Assembly: GCF_001434465.1 (NCBI RefSeq) | Contig: NZ_AZGE01000006.1 | Span: 35,960 to 88,535 of the forward strand | DNA: 52,576 nt | Direction: 5' to 3' | Origin: Limosilactobacillus oris DSM 4864 | GTDB lineage: Bacteria; Bacillota; Bacilli; Lactobacillales; Lactobacillaceae | Notes under the pieces: generated by a model | Database searches by the model: none | What the model was told of the DNA's origin: nothing | The model's input: only the letters and a program-made list of their open reading frames with translations | Program-made: the position numbers and the translations under genes | In this document: piece by piece, positions 3,661-52,455 of the stretch | How positions within the stretch are numbered: position 1 is the stretch's first letter | Layout: each line of letters opens with the position of its first letter

Positions 3661-3673
3661 GAGGGACTTAACC

Positions 3674-7292: not shown

Positions 7293-7307
7293 ATTTAATG
7301 TTAAACT
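7280..7307 (+). promoter_or_regulatory. deo operon promoter
   Basis: TGGACA at 7280-7285 and TAAACT at 7302-7307 are separated by 16 bp. It overlaps the palindrome 7258-7292 and is followed by a cre site, the layout of a repressible catabolic promoter. Confidence 0.6.
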
Positions 7308-7322
7308 ATACACATAGCGAAA

Positions 7323-7338
7323 ATGAAAGCGAATTCAA
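7323..7338 (+). promoter_or_regulatory. cre site (CcpA), deo operon
   Basis: ATGAAAGCGAATTCAA matches the cre consensus WTGNNARCGNWWWCAW at every position. It lies just downstream of the predicted transcription start, a position typical for carbon catabolite repression by CcpA-HPr(Ser-P). Confidence 0.8.
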
Positions 7339-7357
7339 AAAAAGAGGAGATTTAAGA

Positions 7358-30890: not shown

Positions 30891-30924
30891 AAAATCCGCA
30901 CTGCAAAAAGGTGCGGATTTTTTA
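30891..30924 (+). terminator. fhs terminator
   Basis: AAAATCCGCAC pairs with GTGCGGATTTT around TGCAAAAAG, followed by TT and more T. Confidence 0.85.
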
Positions 30925-30969
30925 TGTTTCCGTATTTATTAAGTAGGGGAATAAATGCGGGGTGAGCAA

Positions 30970-31809: not shown

Positions 31810-31887
31810 CTAAACAGGACTGCTACTGATTAATTTGTGTGCCACAGCAAGTCAAAGTTCTCCACTTGTTTAGGACTGTTAAAACGC

Positions 31888-31921
31888 AAGAGGCTGAGAA
31901 AAACTCAGCCTCTTATCTATT
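31888..31921 (+). terminator. Terminator after Rpn gene
   Basis: AAGAGGCTGAG and CTCAGCCTCTT enclose AAAAA; an AT-rich tract with T6 follows. Confidence 0.8.
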
Positions 31922-32076
31922 TTTTAAGATAAAAATACAACAGCGCAGTAGCTGGCTAGCCAAGCCAGTTTCGTCCCCCTCTCTAGTGAATATTGACGTC
32001 TGCTGGGGGCATGACTAAAATATGGGGGGGGAAAAAAAGAGCCCTTTAGATTAACGGGAGCTGGAGAACTGGCACG
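31922..32076 (+). promoter_or_regulatory. Leader and promoter of the LDT-like gene with G8A7 tract
   Basis: TTGACG at 31993-31998 and TAAAAT at 32016-32021 with a 17-bp spacer form a good promoter. The expected start (about 32028) lies inside a run of eight G (32024-32031) followed by seven A. A short palindrome (CTGGCT-AGCC-AAGCCAG, 31951-31967) lies upstream. The gap 31810-32076 has no gene. Confidence 0.55.
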
Positions 32077-32643
32077 ATGAATGAAGAATTAAAGAAAATG
32101 TTTAAAGTTGGCTTTGGCGTTTTAGCACTGCTATTGGTAATCATTAACTTTATCGCGTGGCTTTCCCATAACCAGGCGCTGGGGGCTACCTATAGCAGTC
32201 AATGCTTAGCAGTGAATCGGCTTCGTAGTCCTCGAGTAGGGCGACCGTCAGAGCACGGGCACTACCCACAGCTGGCTCGTCACCAGCGGGTAAAACTGGT
32301 GGTCATGAAAAAGGAAAAGCGGCTGTACGTTCTCAGCAACCATCACGTGTTATACATCATCAATGCTAAAACGAATCTCGCCCCCACGACGACCCAAATC
32401 AACGGGGCCCGGGGCACAATTATCTTTACTCAGAACAATGGCATCCGGCAGGTGGGCGCCAACTTGCTAAGCCTCAATCATGCCGACACGTTCATCGAAG
32501 CCCCTGCCTATATTAATAATCACCGGGTCCATGGCAATTGGCTCCGCAGTCGTTATCAATGTACTAACACGGTTGACGTTTCTAAACCGGATGCTCACTG
32601 GTTGCAGAGCTTGCCCAATAATACCCGGCTGGTTATTAAATAA
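32077..32643 (+). CDS. Degenerate L,D-transpeptidase (YkuD-like) paralogue
   Basis: 188 aa with an N-terminal membrane anchor (about 10-30). The remainder aligns by eye with the L,D-transpeptidase at 32835-33503: VKLVVMKKEKRLYVL against VKVSLKKNRTYLYDG, and QCTNTVDVSKPDAHWLQSL against GCIRLSIPDAQWMSTHL. The cysteine remains, but the catalytic histidines (LFHS and SHG) and the arginine after the cysteine are replaced (FIEA, RYQC). It is therefore probably not a normal transpeptidase; a binding or regulatory role is possible. Its own promoter is at 31993. Confidence 0.6.
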   Translation: MNEELKKMFKVGFGVLALLLVIINFIAWLSHNQALGATYSSQCLAVNRLRSPRVGRPSEHGHYPQLARHQRVKLVVMKKEKRLYVLSNHHVLYIINAKTNLAPTTTQINGARGTIIFTQNNGIRQVGANLLSLNHADTFIEAPAYINNHRVHGNWLRSRYQCTNTVDVSKPDAHWLQSLPNNTRLVIK

Positions 32644-32657
32644 GGATATTAACAAAA

Positions 32658-32870
32658 ATGAAATATCACTTAACGAGAAAATTTATTAAACACGTTGCGG
32701 TGACCGACCTCTTTGTTTTTCTGGCACTCTTCTGCTATGACATTTTAGCGTGGCTGATTCCGGTGGTACGGGTGCGATTCTGGGGGATTATTCTTATCCT
32801 GCTGATTGTGGACCTCTGCCTCATTAGCATTAAGTTAATTAACAATTACGATTTTGGTCCCCACCGGTAA
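32658..32870 (+). CDS. Small two-helix membrane protein A
   Basis: 70 aa with two hydrophobic helices (about 15-33 and 41-59) and a basic N-terminus. It begins 14 bp after the LDT-like gene, so is probably co-transcribed, and its 3' end overlaps the convergent L,D-transpeptidase by 36 bp. It is related to the protein at 33695-33943: YDILAW/YNLVHF, DLCLI/NLCLI, IKLINNYD/IKMFLNAYD. Function unknown. Confidence 0.55.
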   Translation: MKYHLTRKFIKHVAVTDLFVFLALFCYDILAWLIPVVRVRFWGIILILLIVDLCLISIKLINNYDFGPHR

Positions 32871-33503
32871 ATGGGTCGACATCCACTGCGCGTCGGGGAT
32901 TGAGAGCCGAATACAGCCGTGGGAACCGGTCGACTTCCCTAATTTATCAGCTTCCTTAACATTGTAGGCACCACCGGCCACAGTCGGAACACTGTGAAAG
33001 AGGTATGTTCCGTGGTCGAGCCAGGAAACATAGTAGTTGGCCCCCTCATTTAAGGATGAGTTGAAAAAGCTATCGCCGCGTTCGGCTTGAGCGTAGTAGG
33101 TGCCGGTGGGCGTCATGCTTTCTATTTCTCCGGTCTGGGGATTCCTCTTATACATACCACCGGTACTGTACATGGTATAGAGCAATTTCTTGCCGTCATA
33201 CAAATAGGTGCGGTTCTTTTTCAAGCTGACCTTGACCCAAAAGTCCTTGGTGGTTGCCAAATCTGGGTAGGGGACGGTTTCTGACGACTTGTGCCAGTCA
33301 ATCGGCACCCGCATCCTGCTCGGCTGGGCAGTAGTGTGGCCGTGCTTGGGATGACTCTCCCGGTGGCTGTTACTGGCCACCTGGGTCTGCCGCGCCGCCT
33401 TAGACGGTTTCTGGCGGTTATTGCGCAGCTCCGGTCCCATTCCGATGGTGGCAACGAATAAGCAGACTCCCGCATAGATTCGGTTTTTAACGACTAATTT
33501 CAA
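32835..33503 (-). CDS. L,D-transpeptidase (YkuD domain)
   Basis: 222 aa: membrane anchor or signal (about 8-24), a Ser/His/Arg-rich linker, then a YkuD domain from about residue 95. The catalytic motif STGSHGCIRL holds the nucleophile cysteine, and LFHSVP supplies the upstream histidine. Such enzymes make 3-3 cross-links or attach proteins to peptidoglycan; lactobacilli often encode several. TTG start with GGAAG upstream. Convergent with and overlapping membrane protein A. Confidence 0.85.
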   Translation of the reverse strand: MKLVVKNRIYAGVCLFVATIGMGPELRNNRQKPSKAARQTQVASNSHRESHPKHGHTTAQPSRMRVPIDWHKSSETVPYPDLATTKDFWVKVSLKKNRTYLYDGKKLLYTMYSTGGMYKRNPQTGEIESMTPTGTYYAQAERGDSFFNSSLNEGANYYVSWLDHGTYLFHSVPTVAGGAYNVKEADKLGKSTGSHGCIRLSIPDAQWMSTHLPVGTKIVIVN

Positions 33504-33602
33504 CGTCTTCCACTTTCTTTATCTTTTCCCGATTCCTAAAATAATGGTTTATAATTATTATAAAATTATCAATGTTCAATTCAATAAGGCAGGCCATTTA
33601 TC

Positions 33603-33683
33603 TTGAGAAATAACTTAAAATTATCATACCTGACCGCAATCTTTTTCTTTGTGGTTGCTGTAATTTGTGCTAATTTCGCGTAG
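33603..33683 (+). CDS. 26-residue hydrophobic peptide
   Basis: TTG-initiated frame MRNNLKLSYLTAIFFF...ICANFA: a basic start and one membrane helix. The upstream AAGGCAGG is a weak ribosome binding site. It ends 11 bp before membrane protein B. It could be a real membrane peptide or an upstream decoy; unproven. Confidence 0.3.
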   Translation: MRNNLKLSYLTAIFFFVVAVICANFA

Positions 33684-33694
33684 GGATGAGAATA

Positions 33695-33943
33695 ATGATA
33701 AAAAAGATTTGGGATTACACAATTAGTCATAAGTGGTCGAAGGATATCCTCCGTGCCAACCTGTTGTATCTGCTATTAGTTCTGGTTTATAACCTCGTTC
33801 ATTTCCACCTGCAGCCGATTAGCTGGCACCTACTTAGCAAGGCTTTCTTGCTGATGAACCTGTGCCTAATCATCAAAATGTTTTTGAATGCCTACGATAA
33901 GGCTGAGCGGCAAGCGGACTGTGATACTATCCACCATAACTAA
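33695..33943 (+). CDS. Small two-helix membrane protein B
   Basis: 82 aa with helices at about 19-37 and 44-62, a basic N-terminus (MIKKIWDYTISHKWSKD) and a charged tail. It is a paralogue of 32658-32870 over about 57 residues with a 2-residue gap. ATG 33695 is preferred (GGGATGAG upstream); ATG 33686 is in frame. It lies divergently from the L,D-transpeptidase and before the araC terminator. Confidence 0.5.
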   Translation: MIKKIWDYTISHKWSKDILRANLLYLLLVLVYNLVHFHLQPISWHLLSKAFLLMNLCLIIKMFLNAYDKAERQADCDTIHHN

Positions 33944-33952
33944 ACTTTGCCT

Positions 33953-33981
33953 GAGGCTGCCCAATCAGGGGCGCCTTTTTT
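33953..33981. terminator. Terminator between membrane protein B and the AraC regulator
   Basis: AGGC-CCC pairs with GGG-GCCT around AATCA, then TTTTTTA. It overlaps the stop of the leftward AraC gene and mainly serves the rightward gene. Confidence 0.6.
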
Positions 33982-34933
33982 ATTTTAAATTGCCGTTTTC
34001 GGGAATATAGTCAATCAGGTCTTCGATTTGCTTAGGGAGCGGGATCTGAGGGTCAATATGTGGATTGTTGTGGTGAATTTCGCGGTTGGACTGTCGGTAT
34101 TCGGTTGGTGTCAAACCAGTCATCGCCTTAAAGCGTCGCAAAAAAGTTCGGGTATCGCTGAAAAAGGAATTTGCCGCAACTTCTTTTATCGGCATCCCGG
34201 TCCTAATTAGCAGGGAGGAGGCAGTCTCAATTTTGATTCGGTTGAGGTACTGGCGGGTGGTTACTCCCAGGACCCGTTTAAACATTCGAGTTAGGTAGTC
34301 CGGATTGAAATTATTATGGTCGGCAATCTCCTCGACCGTTAGCTGGCTACTCATATGGGCACGAATCCATTCCTGAACTGTGGCAACGCGCCGTTGGTCC
34401 GCCCGGGTGCTTTCGGTAGTAGCAGTGCCGGCAAAGAGCTTGATCAGCAGTGCGGCCGTGAGCAGGTTTCGGTCGTCAAGGTAGGGGCGCGGTGGGGTGC
34501 TGGCGAGAATCTGGTGAATCAAAACAGTTACCTCTTCAAAGTTGGCTACGGCAAATTTAAGGGGAAGAAAAATAGTTTGTTGGTGCTTGCTTTGACCAAC
34601 TGCGTTAATCATCGGAGCAATTGATGCTGGCGTCTGTTCAGTTATTTGTGCCCGTTCTTGGGGAAGAAAGTGCAGCCAGTAAAAGGCGGTTCCTACCGGT
34701 GACTTAGCATTGCCGACCATCTTGCAGTAGGGTGGCACAATTAGTAAATCATGGGGCTTGAGAACCAGCTGCTGCTGATTGAGGGTCAGAAAAATTTGCC
34801 CCTGGAGGCAGAAGATCAGTTCGTAGTCACCGTGATGATAGACGGCTTGGTGTTGCCAGGGCTGGTCGGTACGGAATTCACCGCCCTTGTAGTAGAAAAT
34901 GCTCTTGCCAAGATTAAAACTAACGTACTTCAC
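33980..34933 (-). CDS. AraC-family transcriptional regulator
   Basis: 317 aa. The N-terminal cupin-like sugar-binding part contains HHGDYELIFCLQGQ; the C-terminal double helix-turn-helix is VEEIADHNNFNPDYLTRMFK and TGMPIKEVAANSFFSDTRTF...FRRFKAMTGLTPTEYR. GTG 34933 is chosen because AAAGGAGG lies 8 bp upstream; an in-frame ATG at 34975 lacks this. It is divergent from the transporter/GH127 pair and very likely activates it on an arabinose-containing sugar. Confidence 0.88.
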   Translation of the reverse strand: MKYVSFNLGKSIFYYKGGEFRTDQPWQHQAVYHHGDYELIFCLQGQIFLTLNQQQLVLKPHDLLIVPPYCKMVGNAKSPVGTAFYWLHFLPQERAQITEQTPASIAPMINAVGQSKHQQTIFLPLKFAVANFEEVTVLIHQILASTPPRPYLDDRNLLTAALLIKLFAGTATTESTRADQRRVATVQEWIRAHMSSQLTVEEIADHNNFNPDYLTRMFKRVLGVTTRQYLNRIKIETASSLLIRTGMPIKEVAANSFFSDTRTFLRRFKAMTGLTPTEYRQSNREIHHNNPHIDPQIPLPKQIEDLIDYIPENGNLK

Positions 34934-35093
34934 CGTTGCTTCCTCCTTTATAATCTCGTAGTCGGATAGTGTCACCTTTTATTTGCTTTTTGCTACTAAT
35001 AGCTATTATGCCAGTGGTTTGCTACCGCAATTGTACCATCCTTTTATCGGAAAGTGACATCTATTATCTAAATTTCGCCCTTATATCTATTTC

Positions 35094-35107
35094 TGCAAGC
35101 GCTTACG
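35094..35107 (+). promoter_or_regulatory. cre-like site
   Basis: TGCAAGCGCTTACG holds the AAGCGCTT core and matches most of the cre consensus. It lies about 40 bp upstream of a possible -10 (TATTAT, 35140-35145) of the transporter gene, suggesting catabolite control. Confidence 0.55.
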
Positions 35108-35120
35108 ATAATAACTGTAA

Positions 35121-35136
35121 ATTAAGAGCTCTTAAT
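35121..35136. promoter_or_regulatory. 16-bp perfect palindrome in the transporter promoter
   Basis: ATTAAGAGCTCTTAAT sits just upstream of the -10 TATTAT. It is a candidate operator for a dimeric regulator. The AraC protein usually binds direct repeats, so its identity as the binder is uncertain. Confidence 0.45.
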
Positions 35137-35173
35137 CTTTATTATCAAGTTTTGCAATTTTGGAGGAATGATT

Positions 35174-36559
35174 ATGGCGGAGAAAAAGCAGCCTGTGGCT
35201 GGTGAAAACGCAATGGTCCAAGATCATTTACCGTGGCACCGGCGAATTACCTATGGTTTTACTGATATGTCGGGGAACTTGTTATACTGCATCATCAGTT
35301 CCTATATGTTGTACTTCTTTACCAATGTGTTTGGCTTAACGGTCGGCGTGGCCGGAGTATTGCTGTTAATTGGACGGTTCTTTGATGCCCTGGGTGCACC
35401 GGTGATGGGAATTCTGGTTGACCATACCCATAGCAAGTACGGGAAGAACCGGCCCTGGTTCTTATGGATGGCATTACCGTTTGCTGTCTTTGTATGGTTG
35501 CTGTTTACCACGCCACATCTTAGTTATGGAATGAAAATTGTGTATGCCGGGGTAATGTATATCCTCGCGGACCTTTCCTATACTGCTGTTTCAACCCCGA
35601 TTACATCAGTCTTACCGAACCTGACGGGCAGTTCTGACGGGCGGATGTCCGCGAACTCAATTCGGTTAGTGTTGGGGAACGTCGGCAACTTCTTTGCGGT
35701 GACCTTTATTATCCCATTTGCTGACCATCTGGGTCATGGCAACGCCCAAAAGGGTTGGTCCCTGGCAGTTGGTGTTTACGCTATTATTGCCTTTATCCTG
35801 CTAATCGTTGCCTTTCTGGACATGCGTGAAATGAATATTACCAAGGAAAAGGTAATTACGATTAAGGAAAGCCTTAAAGCGACGCGGGGCAACTGGCCGT
35901 GGATAATCATTGTGCTAGCTAACTTAACCTATTGGACTGCCTTCACGATGCGAAATGCGGCCCTTCCTTACTACTTCCAGTACAACTTAGGCAATAAGGG
36001 CCTGATTTCCTTCTTCAACGGTTTTACGATTATCCAAGTCTTGGGAATGGCGGCAGTGCCACTCTTTGCCAAGTTCCTGCACAAGTGGGGGACGACGGTC
36101 TTTATGTTAGCCTTAACAATTATCGGGCAAGTATGGTTAGCCTTCGCGGGGAATAACATCACAGCCGCCTTGATTGGCTGGTGTATTGCCTGCATTGGTT
36201 CCGGGTCAGCCTGCACCATGTTCTTTGCGATGGTGGGGGATACGGTCGACTTTGGTGAATGGAAGAATGGTATCCGGGCCAATGGTTTCCTGACCGCGAT
36301 TGGGGCGTCCTTCTGTATTCAAATGGGGTCTGGGATTGGTTCCTTTATCGCCTCAATGATTATGAAGGGCTTTGGCTTCGATGCCAGCAAGGCGGTTCAG
36401 TCGGCAGCCAGTCTCCATGGAATCAGTTTCTCGTTCCTGTGGGCACCGGTAATTATTTACATTATCAGTATGCTGCTGATGGTTGGCTACCGGAAGTGGG
36501 AAAAACACGAACCGGTTGTGCAACGTGACTTGGAAGCGCGGGCTAAGATGGCCGATTAG
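35174..36559 (+). CDS. GPH-family sugar:cation symporter
   Basis: 461 aa with about 12 membrane helices. Glycoside-pentoside-hexuronide family hallmarks: GFTDMSGNLLY near the start, GRFFDALGAPVMGILVDHT, SKYGKNRPWFLW, and MVGDTVDFGEWKNGIRANG late in the protein. Probably imports an arabinose-containing oligosaccharide for the GH127 enzyme encoded next. ATG 35174 is 8 bp from GGAGG; ATG 35168 is too close. Confidence 0.88.
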   Translation: MAEKKQPVAGENAMVQDHLPWHRRITYGFTDMSGNLLYCIISSYMLYFFTNVFGLTVGVAGVLLLIGRFFDALGAPVMGILVDHTHSKYGKNRPWFLWMALPFAVFVWLLFTTPHLSYGMKIVYAGVMYILADLSYTAVSTPITSVLPNLTGSSDGRMSANSIRLVLGNVGNFFAVTFIIPFADHLGHGNAQKGWSLAVGVYAIIAFILLIVAFLDMREMNITKEKVITIKESLKATRGNWPWIIIVLANLTYWTAFTMRNAALPYYFQYNLGNKGLISFFNGFTIIQVLGMAAVPLFAKFLHKWGTTVFMLALTIIGQVWLAFAGNNITAALIGWCIACIGSGSACTMFFAMVGDTVDFGEWKNGIRANGFLTAIGASFCIQMGSGIGSFIASMIMKGFGFDASKAVQSAASLHGISFSFLWAPVIIYIISMLLMVGYRKWEKHEPVVQRDLEARAKMAD

Positions 36560-36573
36560 ATGGAGGACGCGAA

Positions 36574-38520
36574 ATGAAAATTCAAAAAATTAAAATCACG
36601 GCGGACTTTTGGCGCCGGTACAGAGAACTGGTCGTCAAAGAAGTGCTGCCGTACCAATGGAAAGTCATGAATGACGAGGCGGGAATCAACATTGCTGACG
36701 ATCCCCAGAATAACGGGCAGGACCAAAACAGTCACGCCATCGCTAACTTAAAGATAGCGGCTGGTAAGATGAAAGGTCACCATTATGGTTTTCCCTTTCA
36801 AGATACGGACGTTTACAAGTGGCTGGAGGCGGCGGCTTATACACTAAAGTACCACCCGGACGATGACCTGCGAAAGATTACCGATCGCCTAGTTGACCTA
36901 ATTGCGGCGGCCCAGGAAGATGATGGCTACCTCTCAACCTACTTTCAAATTGATGCCCCTGATCGCAAGTTTAAGCGTCTCCAGCAGTCCCACGAGCTGT
37001 ATACGATGGGGCACTACATCGAAGCAGGGGTGGCCTACTATCAAGTTACTGGTAGTCAAAAGGCGCTGGCGATTGCCAAGAAAATGGCGGACTGCATTGA
37101 CCGCCACTTTGGTCAGGACGAGGGAAAAATTCGTGGAGTAGATGGCCACCCGGAGATTGAACTGGCTTTGGCACGTTTATACGAAGTTACGACGGATCAC
37201 CGTTATCTGGAATTGGCACATTTCTTCTTGACTGAACGGGGACTGGATCCAGACTTCCTTGACCGGCAAGTCCAAGCGGACGGTCCTGACCGGGACATTA
37301 TTCCCAATATGCAGGGATTGCCCAAGGAATACTATCTGACTAATGCTCCGCTTAAAGACCAGCAGGCACCACATGGGCATGCGGTCAGGGTAGTGTACCT
37401 CTGCACGGGGATGGCTTACGTAGCCCGCTACACCCACGATAAAGAGCTGCTTGCCGCCTGTGATCGTTTCTGGAACGACATCGTTAAACGGCAGATGTAT
37501 ATTACCGGTAACATTGGGCAGACGACAACTGGAGAGGCGTTTACTTACGACTATGACTTGCCAAACGATACTAACTATGGTGAAACGTGCGCCTCAGTCG
37601 GACTGGCATTTTTTGCCAACCAAATGCTCAAACTACGGCCGCTTGGTGAATATGCTGACGTCTTAGAGAAGGAGCTGTTCAACGGGGCACTAGCTGGGAT
37701 GTCGTTAGACGGTAAGCATTTCTTTTACGTCAACCCCTTGGAAGCTGATCCGGCGGATAGTAAATGGAATCCCGGAAAGGCTCATATCTTGACACGCCGG
37801 GCAGAGTGGTTTGGCTGTGCCTGCTGCCCATCGAATCTGGCGCGGCTGATTGCATCTGTTGATCGTTATATCTATACGGTTAGCGACGAGACGGTGCTTT
37901 CTCACCAGTTCATTGCCAATGATACGCAGTTCAGCAATGGTGCTCGGATTCAGCAGGAGAATAACTATCCGTGGTCTGGCGACATTCACTACCGGGTTAG
38001 CCCCGGAAAAACGCCGTTTCGGTTAGGGATTCGGCTCCCGCACTGGTCGGCAAAAACTGCTTTGACCGTTAACGGGCAGAAAAAAGAGCTGGCCGTTGAT
38101 AATGGCTTTATCTACTTTGAGGTAGCGGATAAGGAATTAGCCATCGACTTGCAGCTAGATATGAGTGTGAAGTACATGGTTGCTAACAACCGTGTTAAGG
38201 CTGATATTGGCAAGGTTGCTGTTCAACGGGGTCCGCTTGTTTATGCGGCAGAAGAAACTGATAACGACTTTCCTCTTTGGACCGCCCGGGTGCTGACAGA
38301 AGAAGAGCCAAGAGTTAGTTTTGAACCGCAGCTCCTAGGTGGGGTAGCAATGGTCCGGATTCCCGTCGAAAGTGACCAGTTGGCAAGTGTGGATGCGCCA
38401 CTCTACCAGGCACTGCCAGAGAAGGTGCACCGCCAACAGGCAATGTTAAAACTGATCCCTTATTATGCTTGGGCTAATCGACGAGATGGTGCCATGCAGG
38501 TTTGGCTTCATCGCCGGTGA
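36574..38520 (+). CDS. GH127 beta-L-arabinofuranosidase
   Basis: 648 aa, full length. Removes terminal beta-L-arabinofuranose residues such as those on hydroxyproline-linked arabino-oligosaccharides of plant glycoproteins. The zinc and catalytic residues known from Bifidobacterium HypBA1 are present: E337 and C339 in YGETCASVG, and C417 (nucleophile) and C418 in CACCPSN. No signal peptide is seen, so the enzyme is cytoplasmic and acts on sugar imported by the GPH transporter, whose stop lies 14 bp upstream. Which linkage is cleaved is inferred from the family. Confidence 0.88.
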   Translation: MKIQKIKITADFWRRYRELVVKEVLPYQWKVMNDEAGINIADDPQNNGQDQNSHAIANLKIAAGKMKGHHYGFPFQDTDVYKWLEAAAYTLKYHPDDDLRKITDRLVDLIAAAQEDDGYLSTYFQIDAPDRKFKRLQQSHELYTMGHYIEAGVAYYQVTGSQKALAIAKKMADCIDRHFGQDEGKIRGVDGHPEIELALARLYEVTTDHRYLELAHFFLTERGLDPDFLDRQVQADGPDRDIIPNMQGLPKEYYLTNAPLKDQQAPHGHAVRVVYLCTGMAYVARYTHDKELLAACDRFWNDIVKRQMYITGNIGQTTTGEAFTYDYDLPNDTNYGETCASVGLAFFANQMLKLRPLGEYADVLEKELFNGALAGMSLDGKHFFYVNPLEADPADSKWNPGKAHILTRRAEWFGCACCPSNLARLIASVDRYIYTVSDETVLSHQFIANDTQFSNGARIQQENNYPWSGDIHYRVSPGKTPFRLGIRLPHWSAKTALTVNGQKKELAVDNGFIYFEVADKELAIDLQLDMSVKYMVANNRVKADIGKVAVQRGPLVYAAEETDNDFPLWTARVLTEEEPRVSFEPQLLGGVAMVRIPVESDQLASVDAPLYQALPEKVHRQQAMLKLIPYYAWANRRDGAMQVWLHRR

Positions 38521-38682: not shown

Positions 38683-39168
38683 ATGAGTGCAATTAGTGTT
38701 GTAATGGGTAGTAAGTCTGACTGGCCAACGGTTAAGGAGGCCTGCCGGATTCTGGATCAGTTTGGCGTTGATTATGATAAACATGTAATTTCGGCTCACC
38801 GGATGCCACAAGAAATGTTCGCCTTTGCTCAGGGGGCCGTGGCGGCAGGGACCAAGGTCATTATCGCCTGCGCTGGTGGTGCCGCCCACCTGCCGGGAAT
38901 GATTGCGGCCAACACGCCACTGCCGGTGATTGGGATTCCGGGTCAGACCAAGGCCCTCGGTGGGATGGACTCACTACTGTCCATCGTTCAGATGCCGGCT
39001 GGGATTCCCGTTGCTACCACTGCCATTGGGGTCGCCGGGGCCAAGAACGCCGCCCTGCTCGCTTTACAGATCCTGGGGATTACCGACCAGCAAATCCAGC
39101 AGCAGATTGTTGACTACCGCCAGCAAATGCACGATCAGGCAGCAGAAAGCGGGGCGCACCTTGACTAA
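38683..39168 (+). CDS. purE: 5-(carboxyamino)imidazole ribonucleotide mutase
   Basis: Class I PurE (161 aa) converting N5-CAIR to CAIR. MGSKSDWP, the active-site SAHRMP and the AGGAAHLPGM segment are typical. AAGGAGG precedes the ATG. It overlaps the purK start by 8 bp. First gene of purE-purK-purB. Confidence 0.95.
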   Translation: MSAISVVMGSKSDWPTVKEACRILDQFGVDYDKHVISAHRMPQEMFAFAQGAVAAGTKVIIACAGGAAHLPGMIAANTPLPVIGIPGQTKALGGMDSLLSIVQMPAGIPVATTAIGVAGAKNAALLALQILGITDQQIQQQIVDYRQQMHDQAAESGAHLD

Positions 39169-40285
39169 GCTGATTCAACAAGGACAAACCATCGGGATCA
39201 TCGGCGGGGGCCAGCTCGGCCAGATGATGGCGTTAGACGCTAAGCAGACCGGGATGAAGGTCATCGTCCTGGATCCAACGCCGGCTTGCCCAGCCGGCCA
39301 AGTTGCTGATGACCAGATCGTGGCCGAATACGCGGACGTGTCCGCAATTGAAGAATTAGCCCGCCGGTCGGACGTCCTGACCTACGAATTTGAAAACGTT
39401 GACCTCAACGCCCTCAAAGACGTCGCTGACCAGGTTTACATTCCCCAGGGCACCCACCTGCTCTATACGACCAAGAACCGGATTCGGGAAAAGACCTTTC
39501 TCCGGGATGCGGGCCTCCAGACGGCACCGTTTCGGGCGGTCAAGGACGCGACGGACTTGAAGCGTGCCGTGGCAGAACTCGGCTACCCCTGTGTCCTCAA
39601 GACATGCGAGGGGGGCTATGACGGTCACGGTCAGGAAGTCCTCCATAGCGATGCCGACCTTGCCAAATGTACCGGTATCCTGTCAACCCGGGACGCGATT
39701 TTGGAAGGCTGGGTACCATTTGAACTTGAATGTTCGGTCATGGTGGGGCGGAACGAAAATGGCGAAGTCACCGTCTTCCCGGTTGCCGAAAACATTCACC
39801 ACGACGAAATCCTCCACATCAGTATTATCCCGGCACGGATTTCACCAGAATTGCAAGAGAAGGCCCAGCAGATGGCAGTTCAAATTGCCCACGCGATCGA
39901 CCTGCGCGGGATCCTCGGCGTGGAAATGTTTGTTGGCCGTGACGGCGAAATCTACATCAACGAGCTGGCACCGCGGCCGCACAATTCCGGTCACTACTCC
40001 ATTGAAGCCTGCAACTTCTCCCAGTTTGCAATCCACAACCGGGCCGTTTGCAACTGGCCGCTGCCAAAGATTGAACTGCTCAAGCCGGCCGTGATGGTGA
40101 ATGTCCTCGGCCAGCACGTTACTGGTGTGCGGGAACAAATTAGCCAAAAACCGAACTGGCACTTCCATGATTATGGCAAAGCGGCGGTCCGCCATAACCG
40201 CAAAATGGGCCACGTAACGATTTTAACTGATGACGTTGAGCAAACACTAACAGAAATTGACAATACGGGTATCTGGTCTGAGTAA
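39161..40285 (+). CDS. purK: 5-(carboxyamino)imidazole ribonucleotide synthase
   Basis: ATP-grasp enzyme making N5-CAIR from AIR, bicarbonate and ATP. IGIIGGGQLGQMMALDAKQ opens the protein, and ELAPRPHNSGHYSIEA is the family motif near the end. TTG 39161, overlapping the purE stop, gives 374 aa; the frame is open further upstream to 38930 but only as a second frame within purE. Confidence 0.92.
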   Translation: MTKLIQQGQTIGIIGGGQLGQMMALDAKQTGMKVIVLDPTPACPAGQVADDQIVAEYADVSAIEELARRSDVLTYEFENVDLNALKDVADQVYIPQGTHLLYTTKNRIREKTFLRDAGLQTAPFRAVKDATDLKRAVAELGYPCVLKTCEGGYDGHGQEVLHSDADLAKCTGILSTRDAILEGWVPFELECSVMVGRNENGEVTVFPVAENIHHDEILHISIIPARISPELQEKAQQMAVQIAHAIDLRGILGVEMFVGRDGEIYINELAPRPHNSGHYSIEACNFSQFAIHNRAVCNWPLPKIELLKPAVMVNVLGQHVTGVREQISQKPNWHFHDYGKAAVRHNRKMGHVTILTDDVEQTLTEIDNTGIWSE

Positions 40286-40357: not shown

Positions 40358-41653
40358 ATGATTGATCGCTATACAAGTCCGGAAATGGCAAAGATTTGGA
40401 GCTTGGAAACCCAGTACCAGTGCTGGCTGGAAGTCGAAATTGCCGCTGACGAAGCCTGGAGCAAGCTCGGCCACATTCCGGCAGAAGACGTGGAAAAGAT
40501 TAAGAAGAACGCTAAGTTTACCGTTGACGGGATTGCGGAAATCGAAGCCGTTACCCACCACGACGTCATCGCCTTTACCCGGGATGTTTCCAAGTCCCTT
40601 GGCCCGGAAAAGAAGTGGGTGCATTACGGAATGACCAGTACCGACGTGGTGGACACCGCCCAGGGACTGCGGCTCAAGAAGGCCAACGATATTTTACGCC
40701 AGGACATCGACAACTTTATGGCAGTCCTGAAGGAAATGGCGGAGAAGTACAAGTACACCGTCTGCATGGGCCGGACCCACGGGATTCACGCCGAGCCAAC
40801 CACTTTTGGCCTCAAGGCAGCCCGCTGGTACTCTGAAATGAAGCGGAACAAGGAACGCTTTGAACACGCGGCCCAGGGCGTTGAAGCTGGTAAGATTTCC
40901 GGGGCGGTCGGCACCTTCGCCGAAATCGACCCCTTCGTTGAAGAATACGTCTGCAAGCGGCTTGGCCTGCGTCCTCAGGAAGTTTCTACCCAGGTACTGC
41001 CGCGCGACCTGCACGCCGAATACATTGCGACGATTGCCCTGATTGGGACCAGCCTGGAAGAAATGGCGACGGAAATCCGCTCCCTCCAGCGGACGGAAAT
41101 CCACGAGGTCGAAGAACACTTTGCCAAGGGACAAAAGGGTTCTTCGGCAATGCCGCACAAGCGGAACCCAATTGGCTCGGAGAACATCTGCGGTTGTGCC
41201 CGGGTCCTGCGCGGCCACGTGGTTACGGCCTATGAAGACGTGGCCCTCTGGCATGAACGGGACATTTCCCATTCCAGCGCGGAACGGATGATCCTGCCGG
41301 ACTCTACTTCGCTGCTGGACTACATGCTCCGGCGTTTCGGCCGCATTTTGAAGAACCTGGATGTGTTCCCAGAAACGATGAAGAAGAACATGGACAAGAC
41401 CCTCGGCTTGATTTACTCCGGTCGGGTCCTGCTCAAACTGGTCAACAGCGGGATGAGCCGGGAGGCCGCCTACGACCTAATTCAGCCGTACACTGCGAAG
41501 TGCTGGGCCGAACAGATTGCCTTCCGTCCGTTGCTGGAAGCTGACCCGACTATCCAAAAGCAGTTGACTAAGGAAGACCTGGACGACGCCTTCGACTACC
41601 ATTGGCACCTCCGCCACGTCGACGACATTTACAAGCGAATTGGCTTAGATTAA
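40358..41653 (+). CDS. purB: Adenylosuccinate lyase
   Basis: Acts twice in purine synthesis, on SAICAR and on adenylosuccinate. The fumarase/aspartase signature [12 protein letters not shown], the TSTDVVDT region and [12 protein letters not shown] are intact; 431 aa. A 72-bp gap after purK holds a possible weak promoter (TTTACG, GATAAT); GAGAGG precedes the ATG. Confidence 0.95.
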
Positions 41654-42688: not shown

Positions 42689-43408
42689 ATGGAAAAACTA
42701 TTGTACACCGGTAAGGCAAAACAGATGTGGCAAACCGACGACCCCGAGGTTTTACGGGTCGTTTACATGGACCAGGCCACGGCACTGAACGGCAAGGAAA
42801 AGGACCATTTTGCTGGTAAGGGGAAGGCCGCCAACGCAATTTCCACCCTGGTTTTCCAATACTTAGTCCGTCATGGTATCCAGACCCACTTCATCAAGAA
42901 GCTGTCTGATAAGGAAGAGTTGGTTAAAAAGTGCCAGATGGTGCCGCTGGAATTCGTGACCCGGAATGTGATCGCGGGCCACTTCGCCAGCCGTTACGGC
43001 TTGCATGAAGGGGACTCTTTAACCGAACCGGTGGAAGAAACTTTCTACAAGAGCGACCAGCTGGACGATCCATTCATCAACGAGTCGGCGACGATTGCGC
43101 TCGGGATTGCGACCCACCAGGAACTCGAACAGATGTGGGGTGTCTGCCGGGAAGTCAACACCCTGCTGACCCACCTCTTTGCCCAGGCGGGAATGCGGTT
43201 GGTGGACTTCAAACTGGAATTTGGTCACCTCAGTGACGGCAAAATTATTCTGGCTGACGAATTTTCGCCGGACAACTGCCGGCTTTGGGATCTCAAGACG
43301 AACGACCACCTGGACAAGGACGTTTACCGGCGGGACCTCGCCGACTTGACGACCACCTACGATGAAGTGCTGGCCCGGTTACAACAAGCAATTGCGGAGG
43401 AAAACTAA
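42689..43408 (+). CDS. purC: SAICAR synthase
   Basis: Condenses CAIR with aspartate. It has the ATP-binding start LLYTGKAKQMW, PLEFVTRNVIAGHFASR and LVDFKLEFG; 239 aa. AAAGGAG precedes the ATG. Its stop overlaps the purS start (TAATG). First gene of a nine-gene operon. Confidence 0.95.
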   Translation: MEKLLYTGKAKQMWQTDDPEVLRVVYMDQATALNGKEKDHFAGKGKAANAISTLVFQYLVRHGIQTHFIKKLSDKEELVKKCQMVPLEFVTRNVIAGHFASRYGLHEGDSLTEPVEETFYKSDQLDDPFINESATIALGIATHQELEQMWGVCREVNTLLTHLFAQAGMRLVDFKLEFGHLSDGKIILADEFSPDNCRLWDLKTNDHLDKDVYRRDLADLTTTYDEVLARLQQAIAEEN

Positions 43409-43659
43409 TGACTAAAGTTCGGATTTTCGTTACCTACAAGCCGTCCGTATTTGACCCTCAGGGGGACACGATCAAGAAGACCATTCACAACCTCGGACAC
43501 GATGAAGTGCAGGATGTTCAAGTCGGTAAGTTCTTCGACGTCACGGTTGACGGGGACAGCGACCAAGTTGCCGCTACCGTCAAGCAAATTGCCGACCAGC
43601 TCCTGGTCAACTTCAACATGGAAACCTACACCTACCAAGTAATGGAGGATCATCAATGA
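43408..43659 (+). CDS. purS: FGAM synthase subunit PurS
   Basis: Small subunit (83 aa) of the three-part formylglycinamidine ribonucleotide synthase PurS-PurQ-PurL, bridging glutaminase and synthase. [20 protein letters not shown] is the family start. Overlaps purC by 1 bp and purQ by 4 bp (ATGA). Confidence 0.93.
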
Positions 43660-44336
43660 AAATTGCGGTAATCGTTTTTCCAGGTTCCAATTGTGACATT
43701 GATATTTACGAGGCCCTGCACACGGTCTGTGGCGCGGACGTCGACTACGTTTCCCACAAGCAGGAGAGCCTGGCAGGCTACGACGCGGTGATGCTTCCTG
43801 GAGGCTTTTCCTACGGCGACTACCTGCGGGCTGGCGCAATTGCCCGTTTTTCACCCGTGATGGGGGCCGTGGTTGAAATGGCCCGGGCTGGCAAACCAGT
43901 TTTTGGGACCTGCAATGGCTTTCAGATTTTAACCGAGGCGGGACTGTTGCCGGGCGGCTTGAAGCGCAATGATAGCCAACAGTTTGTCTGCAAGACGGTA
44001 CCGCTGGAGGTGGTTTCCAACCGGACCCTCTTTACTAGCCAGTACCAAGAGCACGAGCGGATTGCCCTGCCAATTGCTCACGCAGACGGCAGCTACTATG
44101 CCGATCAGGAGACCCTTGACCAGCTCGAGGCGCACCACCAGGTCGTCTTCCGTTATGCCGAAGAAAACCCGAATGGCAGTCTGCGGAACATCGCTGGAAT
44201 TTGCAACGAGCGGGGCAATGTGCTCGGCATGATGCCGCACCCGGAGCGGGCCGTTGAAGCGCTCCTCGGCAATACCGATGGACTGCGGTTGTTCAAGTCC
44301 CTGTTAGCAAACGGCAGTGTGAAAGTGGAGGAATAG
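43656..44336 (+). CDS. purQ: FGAM synthase glutaminase subunit PurQ
   Basis: Class I amidotransferase (226 aa) supplying ammonia to PurL. The catalytic cysteine lies in [11 protein letters not shown] and the His/Glu pair in MMPHPERA. Intact, in contrast to the interrupted purL that follows 3 bp later. Confidence 0.95.
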
Positions 44337-44339: not shown

Positions 44340-46568
44340 ATGAAGCAAGCAATGTCACCGGAAGAAATCAAAGCCCAAAAGCCTTACCTGGACTGGAGCC
44401 TGAGCGAAGCGGAATACAACTACATCAGTGAACAGCTCCTGGGGCGGTTGCCAAACTACACGGAAACCGGCCTCTTCTCCGCAATGTGGAGCGAACACTG
44501 TTCTTACAAGAAGTCCAAGCCGGTCCTCCGGCTCTTCCCCAACACAAACGCCCGGGTGCTCCAGGGACCTGGTGAAGGCGCCGGGGTCGTGGACATTGAT
44601 GATGGGCAGGCGGTTGTCTTTAAGGCCGAAAGCCATAACCACCCGACGACCGTGGAACCCTACCAGGGGGCCGCAACTGGAATCGGCGGTATCCTGCGGG
44701 ACATCTTTAGCATGGGTGCCCGTCCGGTAGCATCGCTTGATTCCCTTCACTTTGGCGAACTGACTGACGCGTAGACGAAGATGCGGGTTACCGGAACCGT
44801 CCGCGGAATCGGTGACTACGGAAACTGTATGGGGATTCCGACGGTCGCTGGGGAAACGACCTTTGATCCTTGCTACCAGGGCAACGTCCTCTGCAACGCC
44901 ATGAGTGTTGGCCTGATGGACCAGAAAGACCTGCAAAAGGGGAAGGCGGCCGGAATCGGCAACGCGGTCATGTACGTCGGTGCCAAGACCGGCCGGGATG
45001 GAATCCATGGTGCGACCTTTGCCTCCGCGGACTTTAGCGACGAAAACGCGACCCAGCGTTCCGCTGTCCAGGTCGGGGATCCCTTTATGGAAAAACTCCT
45101 GTTGGAGGCCTGCCTGGAGGTAATCACGAAGTACCCCGACTGGCTGGTCGGCATCCAAGATATGGGTGCCGCCGGAATCGTTTCCTCCAGTGCCGAAATG
45201 GCTTCCGAGGGGAACAGCGGGATGGAACTAGACCTTGACCTGGTACCCCAGCGTGAAAGCGGGATGTCGGCTTACGAAATCATGCTCAGTGAGTCCCAGG
45301 AACGGATGCTGCTCTGTGTTAACAAGGGCCACGAGGAAGACGTCAAGAAGGTCTTTGACTTTTACGACCTCGAGGCGGTCACCATCGGCCGGATCACGGC
45401 TGGTCACCAGTACGTCCTCCACCATGACGGCGAGGTGGTCTGTGACATTCCGGTCAGCAGCCTGACCGACGACGTGTTGGAAGAACACAGTGAGGAAAAG
45501 AAGCCCGCACGGATCGTTGCGGCTGAACAGGCACCCGCTTGGCAGCCCCGCATTACGGACGTGGAAGCAACCCTCCGCTCCCTGCTCCAGCAAAGTACGG
45601 TTGCCGACAAGAGCAGCCTTTACCAGCAGTACGACTCCCAGGTTCGGACGAACACCGTTGTCGGTCCCGGCAGTGATGCTGGGGTAATCCGGGTGCGGGG
45701 AACGCACAAGGGCCTGGCAATGACCACCGACGGCAACGGCCGCTTCGTCTACCTGAGCCCGAAGGTTGGTGGTCAGATTGCCCTAGTTGAAGCGGTCTGC
45801 AACATCATCGCCAGCGGGGCCGAACCATTGGCGATTACTGACTGTCTTAACTACGGTGACCCGAACGACCCGGAAATTTTCTGGGAGCTGCACCAGTCCG
45901 TCCAGGGGATGGCAAATGCCTGCCGGGTCTTTGATACCCCGGTCATCTCCGGGAATGTTTCCCTGTACAACGAAAATAATGGTCAGGCTATCCACCCGAC
46001 CCCGATGGTGGGGATGGTCGGCCTGGTCAAAAACCTCGACCACGTTATTCCGTCCTTTGCCCAGCATCCTGGCGACCATGTTTACCTGGTAGGGCAGACC
46101 GGCGACGACTACGCGGGTTCCGAACTGCAAAAAATGCTTCAGGGGGATATCAGCGGGACGTTAGCTGATTTCGAGCTGGAAACCGTCCGTGACTACCTGC
46201 ACCGCCTGCTCAAGCTAATGCAGGCTGGTAAGGTTGCCAGCGCCCATGACCTCAGCGAGGGCGGCCTCGGGGTGGCCTTGAGCGAAACCCTCTTTAAGAC
46301 GGACCTGGGGATGGACCTCGACCTGCGTCATTTGACCGCGGACCAGTTCTTTAGCGAAACTCCGGGCCGGCTAGTTGTGACTGTACCAGCGGAAGCCGCC
46401 GCGGACTTTGAAAGTGCTATGGGCGGGGATGCCACAATGGTTGGGACCGTTACTAATAGCCACTGGCTGCAAGCCCGGCTAGCAGACGCGGAGGTAAACC
46501 AGAGCGTGGCTGAACTGCAAAAACTATGGGAGGAGGCACTGCCTTGCCAGCTGAAATCAAAGGATTAA
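44340..46568 (+). pseudogene. purL: FGAM synthase PurL interrupted by an in-frame TAG
   Basis: The small-form PurL (742 codons) has normal motifs: [11 protein letters not shown] and [21 protein letters not shown] early, then [29 protein letters not shown] and GGLGVALSE later. Codon 145 (44772-44774) is TAG, between GELTDA and TKMRVTG, in a conserved stretch where relatives have a sense codon. Frame is kept on both sides and the remaining 597 codons are undamaged, so this is a point nonsense mutation and not a frameshift. Products would be a 144-residue fragment and, only with reinitiation at ATG 44781 (no good ribosome binding site), a 595-residue one. Consequences: purine auxotrophy, suppression, a split enzyme, or a base error. 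Confidence 0.88.
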
Positions 46569-48010
46569 ATGAAGAGTGTGGCGTCTTCGGCGTCTTCGGG
46601 GCGCCCGACGCTAGCCAACTGACCTACTACGGTCTCCATACCCTGCAACACCGGGGACAGGAGGGTGCCGGAATTGTTTCTAGCGATGGCAAGCAGCTGT
46701 ACCAGCACCGTGACAGGGGACTGCTGGCGAAGGTCTTCGCAGACCCGGCAGAGTTGAAACGCCTGGTGGGCGACGCGGCAATCGGCCACGTTCGCTACGG
46801 GACCAGCGGTCATAACTCGATTGCCAACGTCCAGCCATTCCTCTTTCGTTTCCACGATGGTGACGTCGCCCTGGCCCACAACGGCAACTTGACCAACGCG
46901 GTCACCCTGCGGCGCCAATTGGAAGACGAGGGGGCGGTCTTTCAGTCCGACTCCGATACGGAAATCTTGATTCACCTGATTCGCCAACACATCAAGGAGG
47001 GCTTTATCCCGGCCCTGAAGAAGAGCCTCAACCAGGTCCACGGCGGCTTTGCCTACTTGCTCTTGCAGCGGGATCGCCTGATTGCGGCCCTCGATCCGAA
47101 CGGTATTCGGCCCCTCTGCATTGGTCAGCTGGCTAACGGCGCCTATGTGGTGGCCAGTGAGACCTGCGCCCTGGACATTATTAACGCCAAGTTCGTCCGC
47201 GACGTCCAGCCGGGTGAGCTGATTATCATTGATCGCGACGGCCTCCACATCGACCACTACACGACGGATACCAAGCTGGCAATCTGCTCGATGGAGTACA
47301 TCTACTTTGCCCGGCCGGATTCCATCATCCACGGGGTGACGGTTCACAACGCCCGCAAGGAGATGGGCCGGCGTTTGGCCCAGGAACATCCAGTTGACGC
47401 GGACATCGTCATCGGGGTACCGAATTCCTCCCTTTCGGCGGCCTCAGGTTATGCCGAAGCCAGCGGTCTTCCCTATGAGATGGGCCTGATCAAGAGCCAG
47501 TACGTTGCTCGGACCTTTATCCAGCCGACCCAGGCGTTACGGGAACGGGGCGTTCACCTGAAACTGTCTGCTGTTCGCGGGGTGGTCAATGGCAAGCGGG
47601 TCATCGTGGTCGACGACTCGATTGTCCGGGGGACGACCTCCAAGCAGATTATCAAGATGTTACGGGACGCCGGGGCGAAGGAAGTACACATGCTGATTGC
47701 GTCACCGCCGTTCAAATTTCCCTGCTTCTACGGGATCGATATTTCCACCCGGTCGGAACTGTTTGCGGCCCACTACTCAGTCGAAGAGATGCGGCGGCAG
47801 ATGGGGGCGGATTCGCTCAGCTTCTTGAGCGTTGAGAGCTTAATCAAGGCCATCAACGTTCCTGACGCCGGGGATGCACCGTATGGCGGCCTGACAGTGG
47901 CCTACTTTAATGGCGACTACCCGACGCCGCTGTACGATTACGAGGCGGGTTACCTTAAATCGCTGAATGCACAGGAGCAGCGTGAACGAAAGGAGCGTGC
48001 GCGGCAATGA
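46544..48010 (+). CDS. purF: Amidophosphoribosyltransferase PurF
   Basis: First step of purine synthesis, PRPP plus glutamine to phosphoribosylamine. TTG 46544 gives [16 protein letters not shown], with an 11-residue propeptide before the N-terminal nucleophile Cys12, as in Bacillus PurF. The PRPP motif [14 protein letters not shown] is intact. It overlaps purL by 25 bp; GGGAGGAGG lies upstream. 488 aa. Confidence 0.94.
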
Positions 48011-49044
48011 ACCGTTATCAAGAAGCTGGCGTTGACGTCAATGCCGGTTACGAATTAGTAGACCGGATCAAGAATGCAGTGAAGTCTACGAACCGGCCGG
48101 GCGTGGTTGGTGGCATCGGCAGCTTTGGCGGCTTGTTCGACCTCGGTGAGTTACACGTGAAACACCCGATCCTGGTTTCGGGAACTGATGGTGTTGGTAC
48201 TAAATTAATGATTGCCCAACGCCTTAACAAGCACGACACGATCGGCATCGACGTGGTTGCCATGTGCGTCAATGACGTGCTGGCCCAGGGCGCCGAACCG
48301 CTCTACTTTCTTGACTACATCGCCACCGGCCACAATGACCCGGCCAAGATGGCGGCAATCGTCACTGGGGTTGCCCAGGGTTGCCGGGACGCCGGCACCG
48401 CTTTGATTGGTGGCGAAACGGCGGAAATGCCGGATATGTATGCCCGGGACGAATATGACCTGGCGGGAACCGTGACGGGCGTGGCCGAAAAAGGTGAAAT
48501 GCTGACGGCAGACCGCCCGGCAGCCGGGGACGTCCTGCTTGGCCTCCCGTCTAGCGGCCTCCACTCCAACGGCTTTTCCCTTGTCCGGCAAATCCTCTTC
48601 AAGGACCACCAGCTGGCCTTGGACGCGCGCCCGGCTGAATTAGCGGGGCAGACGATCGGTGAAGCCCTCCTGACGCCGACGAAAATCTATGTTCGGCCGG
48701 TCCTGCCGCTGGTCCGCCAGGGGCTGGTTAACGGGATTGCCCACATCACCGGCGGGGGCCTCATTGAGAACCTGCCGCGGATGTTCGGCGACCACTTGCA
48801 GGCCGTTGTCAACGCGGGTAGCTGGCCGGTACCACCGATTTTCACCTACCTGCAAAAACTCGGGGGCCTCCCGCTAGCAGATTGCTGGCAGACCTTTAAT
48901 ATGGGGCTTGGCCTGGTCCTGGCTGTCCAGCCGGAAAAGCTGGCGGCGGTGCAGGCGGCCCTGACCGATGCGGGACAAGAAAGCTACCAGGTTGGCCGTC
49001 TGCAAGAGCGGCCGGCTGGGGCAGCAAAGATTGAAATTAAGTGA
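48007..49044 (+). CDS. purM: AIR synthetase PurM
   Basis: ATP-dependent ring closure of FGAM to [30 protein letters not shown] and the late [13 protein letters not shown] are the family motifs; 345 aa. Its ATG overlaps the purF stop by 4 bp (ATGA). Confidence 0.95.
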
Positions 49045-49054
49045 GGCGTGCAGC

Positions 49055-49636
49055 ATGAGAGTAGCGATTTTTGCTTCCGGCAACGGAACGAATTTTGAAG
49101 AACTAGCCCAGCACTTTCAGGCCGGCAACCTGCCAGGGGAACTAGCCCTGCTGTTTTGCAACCACCCGGACGCACCGGTGATGGGACGGGCAGCGCGGCT
49201 CGGTGTCCCCGCCGAAAGTTTTACGGTCAAGGAAAGCGGCGGCAAGCTGGCCTATGAGCAGCGGGTGCTGGCCGTCCTGAAGCAGTACCGGATCGACTTC
49301 ATCGTCCTGGCCGGCTACCTGCGGGTGGTTGGCCCGACGATCCTCGATGAATATGACCACCGGATTGTCAACCTGCACCCGGCCTGGCTGCCGGAGTACC
49401 CGGGCCTCCATTCCATCGAACGGGCCTTTAACGATGGCCGGACCCAGACCGGGGTAACGGTCCACTACATCGACGCCGACTTGGACGCCGGGCCGGTGAT
49501 TGCCCAGTGCCACGTGCCGATTTTGCCAGACGACACGGTGGCGAGCTTGGAAGAGCGGGTTCACGCGACAGAACACCAGTTATACCCATTAGCACTACGA
49601 GAAGCACTGTTGGCAGCAGGAGAAAAGGAGTATTAA
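49055..49636 (+). CDS. purN: GAR transformylase PurN
   Basis: Transfers a formyl group from 10-formyl-THF to GAR. The catalytic Asn and His lie in [12 protein letters not shown], and the Asp in [19 protein letters not shown] 49055, with GTGAGGCG upstream, gives [15 protein letters not shown], 193 aa; the open frame upstream runs through the end of purM and is rejected. Confidence 0.94.
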
Positions 49637-49638: not shown

Positions 49639-51177
49639 ATGAAACGAGCATTGGTAAGCGTATCTGATAAGGCAAACCTGGTTCCCTTTGTTCAGGGGCT
49701 GGTCGACAACGGCTACGAAATTGTTTCTACCGGGGGTACCAAGCGGGTCTTGGACGAAGCGGGCATTTCGACCATTAGTATCGAGGACGTTACCCACTTC
49801 CCTGAAATCCTGGATGGGCGGGTCAAGACCCTCAACCCCTATGTTCACGGTGGCCTGTTAGCACGGCGGGAACTGCCAGAACACATGGCAACGCTGGAGA
49901 AGCTCAACATCACGCCAATCGACCTGGTTTGCGTCAACCTATACCCATTTAAGGAAACGATTGAACAGCCGGACGTCAAGCTCGCCGACGCAATTGAAAA
50001 CATCGACATTGGTGGCCCAAGCATGGTTCGGTCCGCGGCGAAAAACTACCGGGACGTGACCATCGTCGTTGACCGGGCCGACTATGACCAGGTGCTGGCG
50101 GAAATCGAGGCGGACGGTGATACCAACCTCGCTACCCGGACCAAGCTCGCCGCCAAGGCCTTCCGCCACACCGCCGCTTATGATGCCCTGATTTCTCAAT
50201 ACCTGACCAAGCAGGACGGGCTGGAAGACCCAGAGCAGCTGACGTTGACCTGGGACCTCAAAGAAACGATGCGCTACGGGGAAAACAGCCACCAGAAGGC
50301 CTGGCTCTACGAGGACGCCCTGCCAAAGAGTTTCTCAGTTCTTTCGGCTAACCAGCTCCACGGGAAGAAGCTGTCCTACAACAACATTAAGGACGCTGAC
50401 GAGGCCCTGCGGTGTATCCGCGAATTTGACGAACCAACTGTCGTAGCGATGAAGCACATGAACCCGTGTGGGATTGGTCGGGGTGAAAACCTGGAACAGG
50501 CTTGGGACCGGGCCTATGAAGCGGACCCGGTATCAATCTTCGGTGGGGTAATTGCCCTGAACCGTCAAGTAGACCTGGCAACGGCCGAGAAGATGCACAA
50601 GCTCTTCCTGGAAATTATCATTGCACCGGGCTTTGACGACGATGCCTATGCCGTACTGGCAAAGAAAAAGAACCTGCGCCTGCTGACCGTCGACTTTAGC
50701 AAGAAGGACGAGGACATCCGCCACGAAGTTGTTTCCGTCATGGGCGGGATGCTGATGCAGGAACAGGACGTCCTAGATGAAGACTACCACGACTGGAAGT
50801 GCGTCACGGAGACCCAACCGACGGAAGCCCAGCTCCGGTCACTGGCCTTTGCCTGGAAGGCCGTTAAGCACGCCAAGTCGAACGCCATCGTGGTAGCAAA
50901 TGACGAACGGACGCTGGGCGTCGGCGAAGGTCAGCCTAACCGGATTGACTCACTCAAGATTGCCGTTCAACACGCCGGTGACGCGATTGACGACCGGGCG
51001 GTGATGGCGAGTGACGCCTTCTTCCCGTTTGGCGACTGTGTTGAGTACGCCGGCCAGCACGGGATCAAGGCCGTGGTCCAACCGGGCGGCTCGATTCGCG
51101 ACCAGGAGTCGATTGAGATGGCAAACAAGTACGGGATTGCAATGGTCACGACGGGGGTTCGCCACTTCCGCCACTAG
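49639..51177 (+). CDS. purH: AICAR transformylase/IMP cyclohydrolase PurH
   Basis: Bifunctional enzyme for the last two steps to IMP. The N-terminal cyclohydrolase domain has [11 protein letters not shown] and [14 protein letters not shown]; the C-terminal transformylase domain has [10 protein letters not shown] and [20 protein letters not shown] 49639 follows AAGGAG; 512 aa. It overlaps nothing and starts 2 bp after purN. Confidence 0.95.
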
Positions 51178-51198: not shown

Positions 51199-52455
51199 AT
51201 GGCAGGACAAGTAAACGTGTTAGTAGTTGGTGAAGGTGGTCGGGAGTTTGCGATTGCCAAGAAACTCCAGGAGAGTCCCCACGTCAAGCAGGTGTACTGC
51301 GCGCCCGGCAACGTGGGGATGCCGACCGTCGGCGTCCAACCGGTGGCGATTGCGGAAACCGACTTTGCGGGGCTGATCAAGTTTGCCAAGGAGCACGCGG
51401 TGGCCTGGACCTTCGTTGGCCCTGAAGACTGCCTGGTCGACGGGATCGTGGACGACTTCGCGGCGGCCGGCTTAAAGGCATTTGGCCCCAACGCCCGGGC
51501 CGCCCAGCTCGAGGGTTCCAAGGATTACGCGCTCAACTTCATGAACAACTACGGGGTGCCGACTGCCCGCCATGCCTCCTACCGGGACCAGACCGCGGCC
51601 CTCGCGGAAATCGACCAGTTTGGCTTTCCGTTGGTAATCAAGGAAAACGGTCTGGCAGGTGGTAAGGGAGTTGTGATCGCCCAGGACCACGCTACGGCCG
51701 TTCAGACGGTCAAGGAGATGTTTGCCAGCGGTCAAGCCCGGCTGGTGCTGGAAGAATGCCTGGTCGGCCCGGAATACTCGATGTTTGTCCTGCTGAGCAA
51801 TGGTCACTACCGGATCCTGCCGATGGCCCAGGACCACAAGCGGGCCTACGATAGTGATAAGGGACCGAATACCGGCGGCATGGGCGCGTACAGTCCGCTG
51901 CCCCAGCTGAGTGCTGCGGACCGCCAGGCGATGGTTGACCAGGTAGTCGTGCCCACGGTTAACGGTCTGGTGGCTGGTGGCTACCACTACCACGGCATTC
52001 TCTACATCGGCCTGATTATGACGGCTACTGGTCCGAAGGTGATCGAATATAACGTCCGCCTAGGCGATCCCGAGACCCAGGTGATCCTGCCCCGGCTGCA
52101 GACCGACCTCTTTGAGCTGGTTGACCGGGCGTTAAACGATCAACCATTGCCAGAGGTGGTCGAGGATCCGCGGGCCAGTTTCGGGGTGGTTCTGGCGTCG
52201 CAGGGCTACCCGCAAAAGCCGGTCCACGGCCAAGCCCTTGGCAAGTTCCCGACCGCGGCCGGGGTTGAGATCGACTACGCCAACGTGGCGGGAAGTCTTG
52301 CCGATTTGCGGGGTGCTGGTGGCCGCCTGCTGATGGTGCTGGCCCAAGCTGATTCCCTCGCGGCTGCCCATGACCGCGTCTACGACTACCTGGCGGCACT
52401 GGATGAGCCGGAGTGCTTCTACCGGACCGACATTGGTGCGAAGGCGGGATTATAG
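51199..52455 (+). CDS. purD: GAR synthetase PurD
   Basis: ATP-grasp ligase joining phosphoribosylamine and glycine. VLVVGEGGREFAIAKKL, ENGLAGGKGVVIA, the MAQDHKRAYDSDKGPNTGGM loop and NVRLGDPETQ are present; 418 aa. GAGGAG precedes the ATG. Last gene of the operon. Confidence 0.95.
   Translation: MAGQVNVLVVGEGGREFAIAKKLQESPHVKQVYCAPGNVGMPTVGVQPVAIAETDFAGLIKFAKEHAVAWTFVGPEDCLVDGIVDDFAAAGLKAFGPNARAAQLEGSKDYALNFMNNYGVPTARHASYRDQTAALAEIDQFGFPLVIKENGLAGGKGVVIAQDHATAVQTVKEMFASGQARLVLEECLVGPEYSMFVLLSNGHYRILPMAQDHKRAYDSDKGPNTGGMGAYSPLPQLSAADRQAMVDQVVVPTVNGLVAGGYHYHGILYIGLIMTATGPKVIEYNVRLGDPETQVILPRLQTDLFELVDRALNDQPLPEVVEDPRASFGVVLASQGYPQKPVHGQALGKFPTAAGVEIDYANVAGSLADLRGAGGRLLMVLAQADSLAAAHDRVYDYLAALDEPECFYRTDIGAKAGL

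Follow-up and report, generated by a model that had tools for sequence, protein, structure and literature searches.

According to a passage of a review (PMC13328217), Lactobacillus species that have adapted to rich habitats lack de novo purine synthesis. Among the top-ranked results of our literature searches, none concerned purL in Limosilactobacillus by title or opening abstract, and the main text of PMC8461469 does not mention purine. When one genome per species was searched, purL was present in 42 of the 50 Limosilactobacillus genomes and missing from the other 8. These same 8 genomes also lacked purM, among the 47 that were searched for both genes, indicating that some species can do without the pathway; half of the 8 were less than 90% complete, and the 41 genomes that passed our quality bar comprised 37 with purL and 4 without it. 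Absence of purine synthesis is not rare in this genus. Disturbed purL genes were also seen in other genomes. In Lactobacillus kitasatonis DSM 16761 (L060), purL (about 2531-4753) lies in three pieces in differing frames and is either broken or mis-sequenced, while in the metagenome-derived genome UBA639 (L016, L053) homology is lost between PurL residues 67 and 105 (39 residues, 118 bases) and then resumes, as would fit a local frame disturbance that is either real or an assembly error.

The locus analyzed here is a stretch of 52,576 nucleotides (hereafter the window), with a GC content of 52.6%, whose end is also the end of its contig in a draft assembly of 75 contigs and 2.03 Mb that is 99.95% complete. 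In a whole-genome search, the downstream piece of its purL gene displayed 67-98% protein identity to Limosilactobacillus genomes, Limosilactobacillus viscerum (89%) and L. panis (87%) being among the named relatives, and, judging from its sequence, the host is a Limosilactobacillus. The nearest genome, referred to as G028, was 98% identical over this 595-aa downstream piece and 96.5% identical at the DNA level across the entire gene. The window carries purE (38683-39168), purK (39161-40285, with a probable TTG start in a frame that is open from 38930), purB (40358-41653), purC (42689-43408), purS (43408-43659), purQ (43656-44336), purL (44340-46568), purF (46526-48010, overlapping the end of purL, with an uncertain true start), purM (48007-49044), purN (49055-49636), purH (49639-51177) and purD (51199-52455), all on the forward strand. 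The 83-aa PurS matched NF004630 and TIGR00302 above cut-off, whereas purE, purK, purB, purC, purF, purM, purN, purH and purD were named by their sequences, and purQ by its position and sequence. All of these genes other than purL are open, and purQ and purD both end with TAG at the same place as in G028. Upstream of them, about 5.8 kb of the window (around 30894-36657), including genes for an AraC-type regulator (33980-34975) and an MFS sugar transporter (35168-36559), matched nothing in the 60-kb region of G028 that corresponds to it, and a GH127 beta-L-arabinofuranosidase-like gene (36574-38520) follows downstream of the MFS gene. The window contained no Rfam match at gathering thresholds and no tRNA gene that we could find.

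The purL frame runs over 742 codons from an ATG at 44340 to a TAA at 46566-46568, and its codon 145 (44772-44774) is an in-frame TAG, exactly as the original prediction had described it. The 5' piece (44340-44774) comprises codons 1-144 and the TAG, covers the linker and the beginning of the first AIRS domain, and its 144-aa product matched positions 1-122 of the 723 positions of the NCBIfam PurL model NF002290. The 3' piece (44781-46568), a 595-aa frame from an ATG at codon 148 to the TAA, matched positions 129-722 of the same model. Each piece thus matches PurL on the expected side of the stop, and the two lie in the same frame, as had been claimed. Since the downstream piece is conserved across the genus and since the TAG is a single-base difference from G028, this frame is not a product of chance. 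The DNA around codon 145 found no match among viral contigs.

We then compared codon 145 with its counterparts in relatives; of the 42 genomes of the genus in which the whole-genome search matched purL, the best 30 were taken as loci. Removal of exact duplicates between two genome sources reduced 57 rows to 40 distinct genus rows, from which the window's own copy (L001), an Aquificaceae sequence (L059) and the frame-shifted L. kitasatonis sequence (L060) had been dropped. Codon 145 was a sense codon in all 40 of them, encoding T in 18, Q in 10, K in 7, A in 2, and L, R or S in one each; in G028, it is a glutamine codon, one transition away from TAG. The TAG is thus a stop in a gene that its relatives keep open, as in recent nonsense pseudogenes. 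Column 145 ranked 42 of 742 by entropy, and columns 141-152 were mostly variable and flanked by invariant blocks. In an alignment with solved enzymes, Thermotoga maritima PurL lacked eight residues at this stretch, which were kept in the Thermus-type enzyme 3viu. The variable columns and the residues absent from the Thermotoga enzyme suggest that the site is probably a surface loop. It nevertheless falls within the first AIRS domain, as the best AIRS stretch spans residues 78-193 in the intact relative L031 (Pfam).

Beyond this stop, purL showed no sign of decay, with neither a frameshift nor a second stop. Compared with G028, it differed synonymously at 65 codons and nonsynonymously at 11 (dN/dS 0.049), and dN/dS values ranged from 0 to 0.097 for the ten other pur genes compared, purK not being one of these. 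The purK gene, read in its proper frame, had no internal stop and differed from G028 at 4 amino acids, purS had no gap and no internal stop relative to G028, and purN had no internal stop in the window. Of 42 matched G028 open reading frames (each of at least 100 aa), purL was the only one interrupted by an internal stop in the window. Thus, the claim that the remaining pur genes look functional held in that all are open frames without internal stops. The reverse comparison of window frames with G028 flagged 3 of 42. Two of these (7256-8035 and 48968-49636) were rejected as broken genes, because the flagged stops lay upstream of their likely true starts. The third was a glutaminase gene (PF04960, full-length match) that is open in the window (6217-7146); its G028 counterpart (L111, 12712-13548) misses about 80 bases and lies in two frames, so that it matches the window gene in two pieces and is broken in G028 itself. 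Codon changes in purL relative to G028 amounted to 53 synonymous and 10 nonsynonymous after the stop, and to 12 and 1 before it, counts that are too small to argue for relaxed selection. Two substitutions in the window, H265Y at a position where all 40 relatives have H, and K69T, where K occurs in 35 of 39 relatives, hint at relaxation only faintly, if at all. Considering that no other matched frame is stopped and that the dN/dS of purL resembles that of its neighbors, the TAG either arose long after the split from G028 or is an error. The view that the event is recent, compensated or an error was therefore borne out by the sense codons in G028 and in all 40 genus rows, together with the undecayed state of purL.

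Altogether, the TAG is probably a very recent and ordinary nonsense null allele of purL, with purine dependence following from it. A single transition at what is a glutamine codon in G028 would have created the TAG and ended purL at codon 145, and this mutation would have arisen in the sequenced Limosilactobacillus strain or in its culture stock. Since translation would halt inside the first AIRS domain, no working PurL should be made and the conversion of FGAR into FGAM would be blocked; we know of no enzyme that bypasses FGAM synthesis. The 75-contig draft yielded a single purL match and no second copy, so that purine dependence would be the expected phenotype. Two proteins over the HGPRTase cut-off and one adenine phosphoribosyltransferase (apt) over its cut-off were encoded in the host genome, as were two permeases, which scored above the cut-offs of pbuX and NCS2_1, respectively. 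The cell may then live on purines imported by such nucleobase permeases and salvaged by the hypoxanthine and adenine phosphoribosyltransferases, while the rest of the pathway would have remained intact simply for lack of time to decay since the mutation.

The main rival of this null-allele reading holds that the strain has an intact purL and that the TAG is an error in the consensus or represents a minority or laboratory variant. The assembly is a draft in 75 contigs from which tRNA genes are missing (50 were found, compared with 61 in G028), purL is otherwise under normal constraint, and a pathway free of further lesions would be equally expected if the base was wrong. We nonetheless consider an error rather unlikely: the site is a clean single-base difference, away from any homopolymer and at a distance of about 7.8 kb from the end of the contig, and the consensus appears generally good, since none of the other matched frames contains an internal stop. 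The base is thus presumably real.

Read-through of the TAG, by a suppressor tRNA or by leaky near-cognate decoding that would insert a residue at codon 145 and allow enough PurL to be made, appears improbable. The site itself might tolerate it, as seven different residues occupy column 145 among the 40 relatives and the solved Thermotoga enzyme has fewer residues in the surrounding stretch. A passage of PMC6102412, which cites a 1995 Lactococcus lactis nonsense-suppressor paper (Dickely et al.) for a purine auxotroph, also suggests that nonsense suppression was selected in another lactic acid bacterium. We searched the host tRNA genes with ARAGORN for a CUA anticodon and found it in none of the 50, which is the number over the Rfam cut-off, two weaker matches falling outside the anticodon check. 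This host set is incomplete, as it counts 11 genes fewer than that of G028 and as lysine tRNAs, present in G028, are missing among the host tRNA genes identified. With such an incomplete set and no CUA tRNA in it, suppression is unsupported, and the escape from the block by codon suppression that the original prediction had left room for found little backing. A TAG that is no longer an ordinary stop, or the loss of release factor 1, marks codon reassignment and not suppression; here, release factor 1 (prfA) is intact and TAG ends 5 of the 21 genes whose terminal stops were listed, at the same places in the host and in G028, showing that TAG is an ordinary stop in the host. A more elaborate version, in which a suppressor tRNA among the unassembled genes, or leaky decoding, would keep full-length PurL at a low and tunable level as a natural conditional switch, is very improbable.

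Least credible of all is a working split enzyme, in which residues 1-144 and 148-742 would be made separately through a restart at ATG 44781: this ATG is in frame with the 5' piece, six bases past its stop, and the variable stretch that holds the break is flanked by conserved blocks, but the Shine-Dalgarno pairing energy before codon 148 amounts to just -0.3 kcal/mol, ranking 36 among the 42 start-like codons in frame, compared with -9.3 kcal/mol at the purL start, the break interrupts the first AIRS domain, and no split at codon 145 occurs in any of the 40 distinct rows from the genus. The second piece thus has no recognizable ribosome-binding site, although a coupled restart would need none. 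In these scores, which left out the purK and purH starts, the start of the purF frame (46526) likewise paired weakly (-1.5), since it is probably not the true start. A parallel could be seen in L. kitasatonis (L060), from another genus, where purL changes frame twice, first between residues 147 and 157 and then near residue 378, but sequencing errors are as likely there. Of the earlier interpretation, then, a recent, compensated or erroneous event stands, while neither suppression nor complementation between two fragments gained much support.

Returning to the null allele, the closest comparison within the genus is Limosilactobacillus coleohominis 101-4-CHN (L056, and G008, which we take to be the same from contig coordinates), whose purL is likewise not one open frame. 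Its lesions are frame changes near residues 126 and 389, whereas the host carries a stop, and the first of these changes is likely a sequencing error, since it falls at a run of seven G; its purM (in G008) is split too, whereas that of the host is open. Nonsense mutants of Lactococcus lactis are reportedly laboratory selections with known suppressors, and the host differs from them in that no suppressor was found among its 50 tRNA genes, an incomplete set. These mutants are reported to share with the host a nonsense codon that blocks purine synthesis in a lactic acid bacterium (Dickely et al. 1995). If the TAG is real, a purine requirement is predicted, which would be relevant to growing the strain and would leave the general picture unchanged. 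As in other cases of single-lesion biosynthetic pseudogenes and purine auxotrophy in lactobacilli, one gene is disrupted in a pathway that some members lack altogether. The host differs from these in that its pathway is complete but for one stop, so that, if real, this locus would capture the earliest stage of purine-pathway loss in a lactobacillus, a first step taken before the other genes of the pathway decay.
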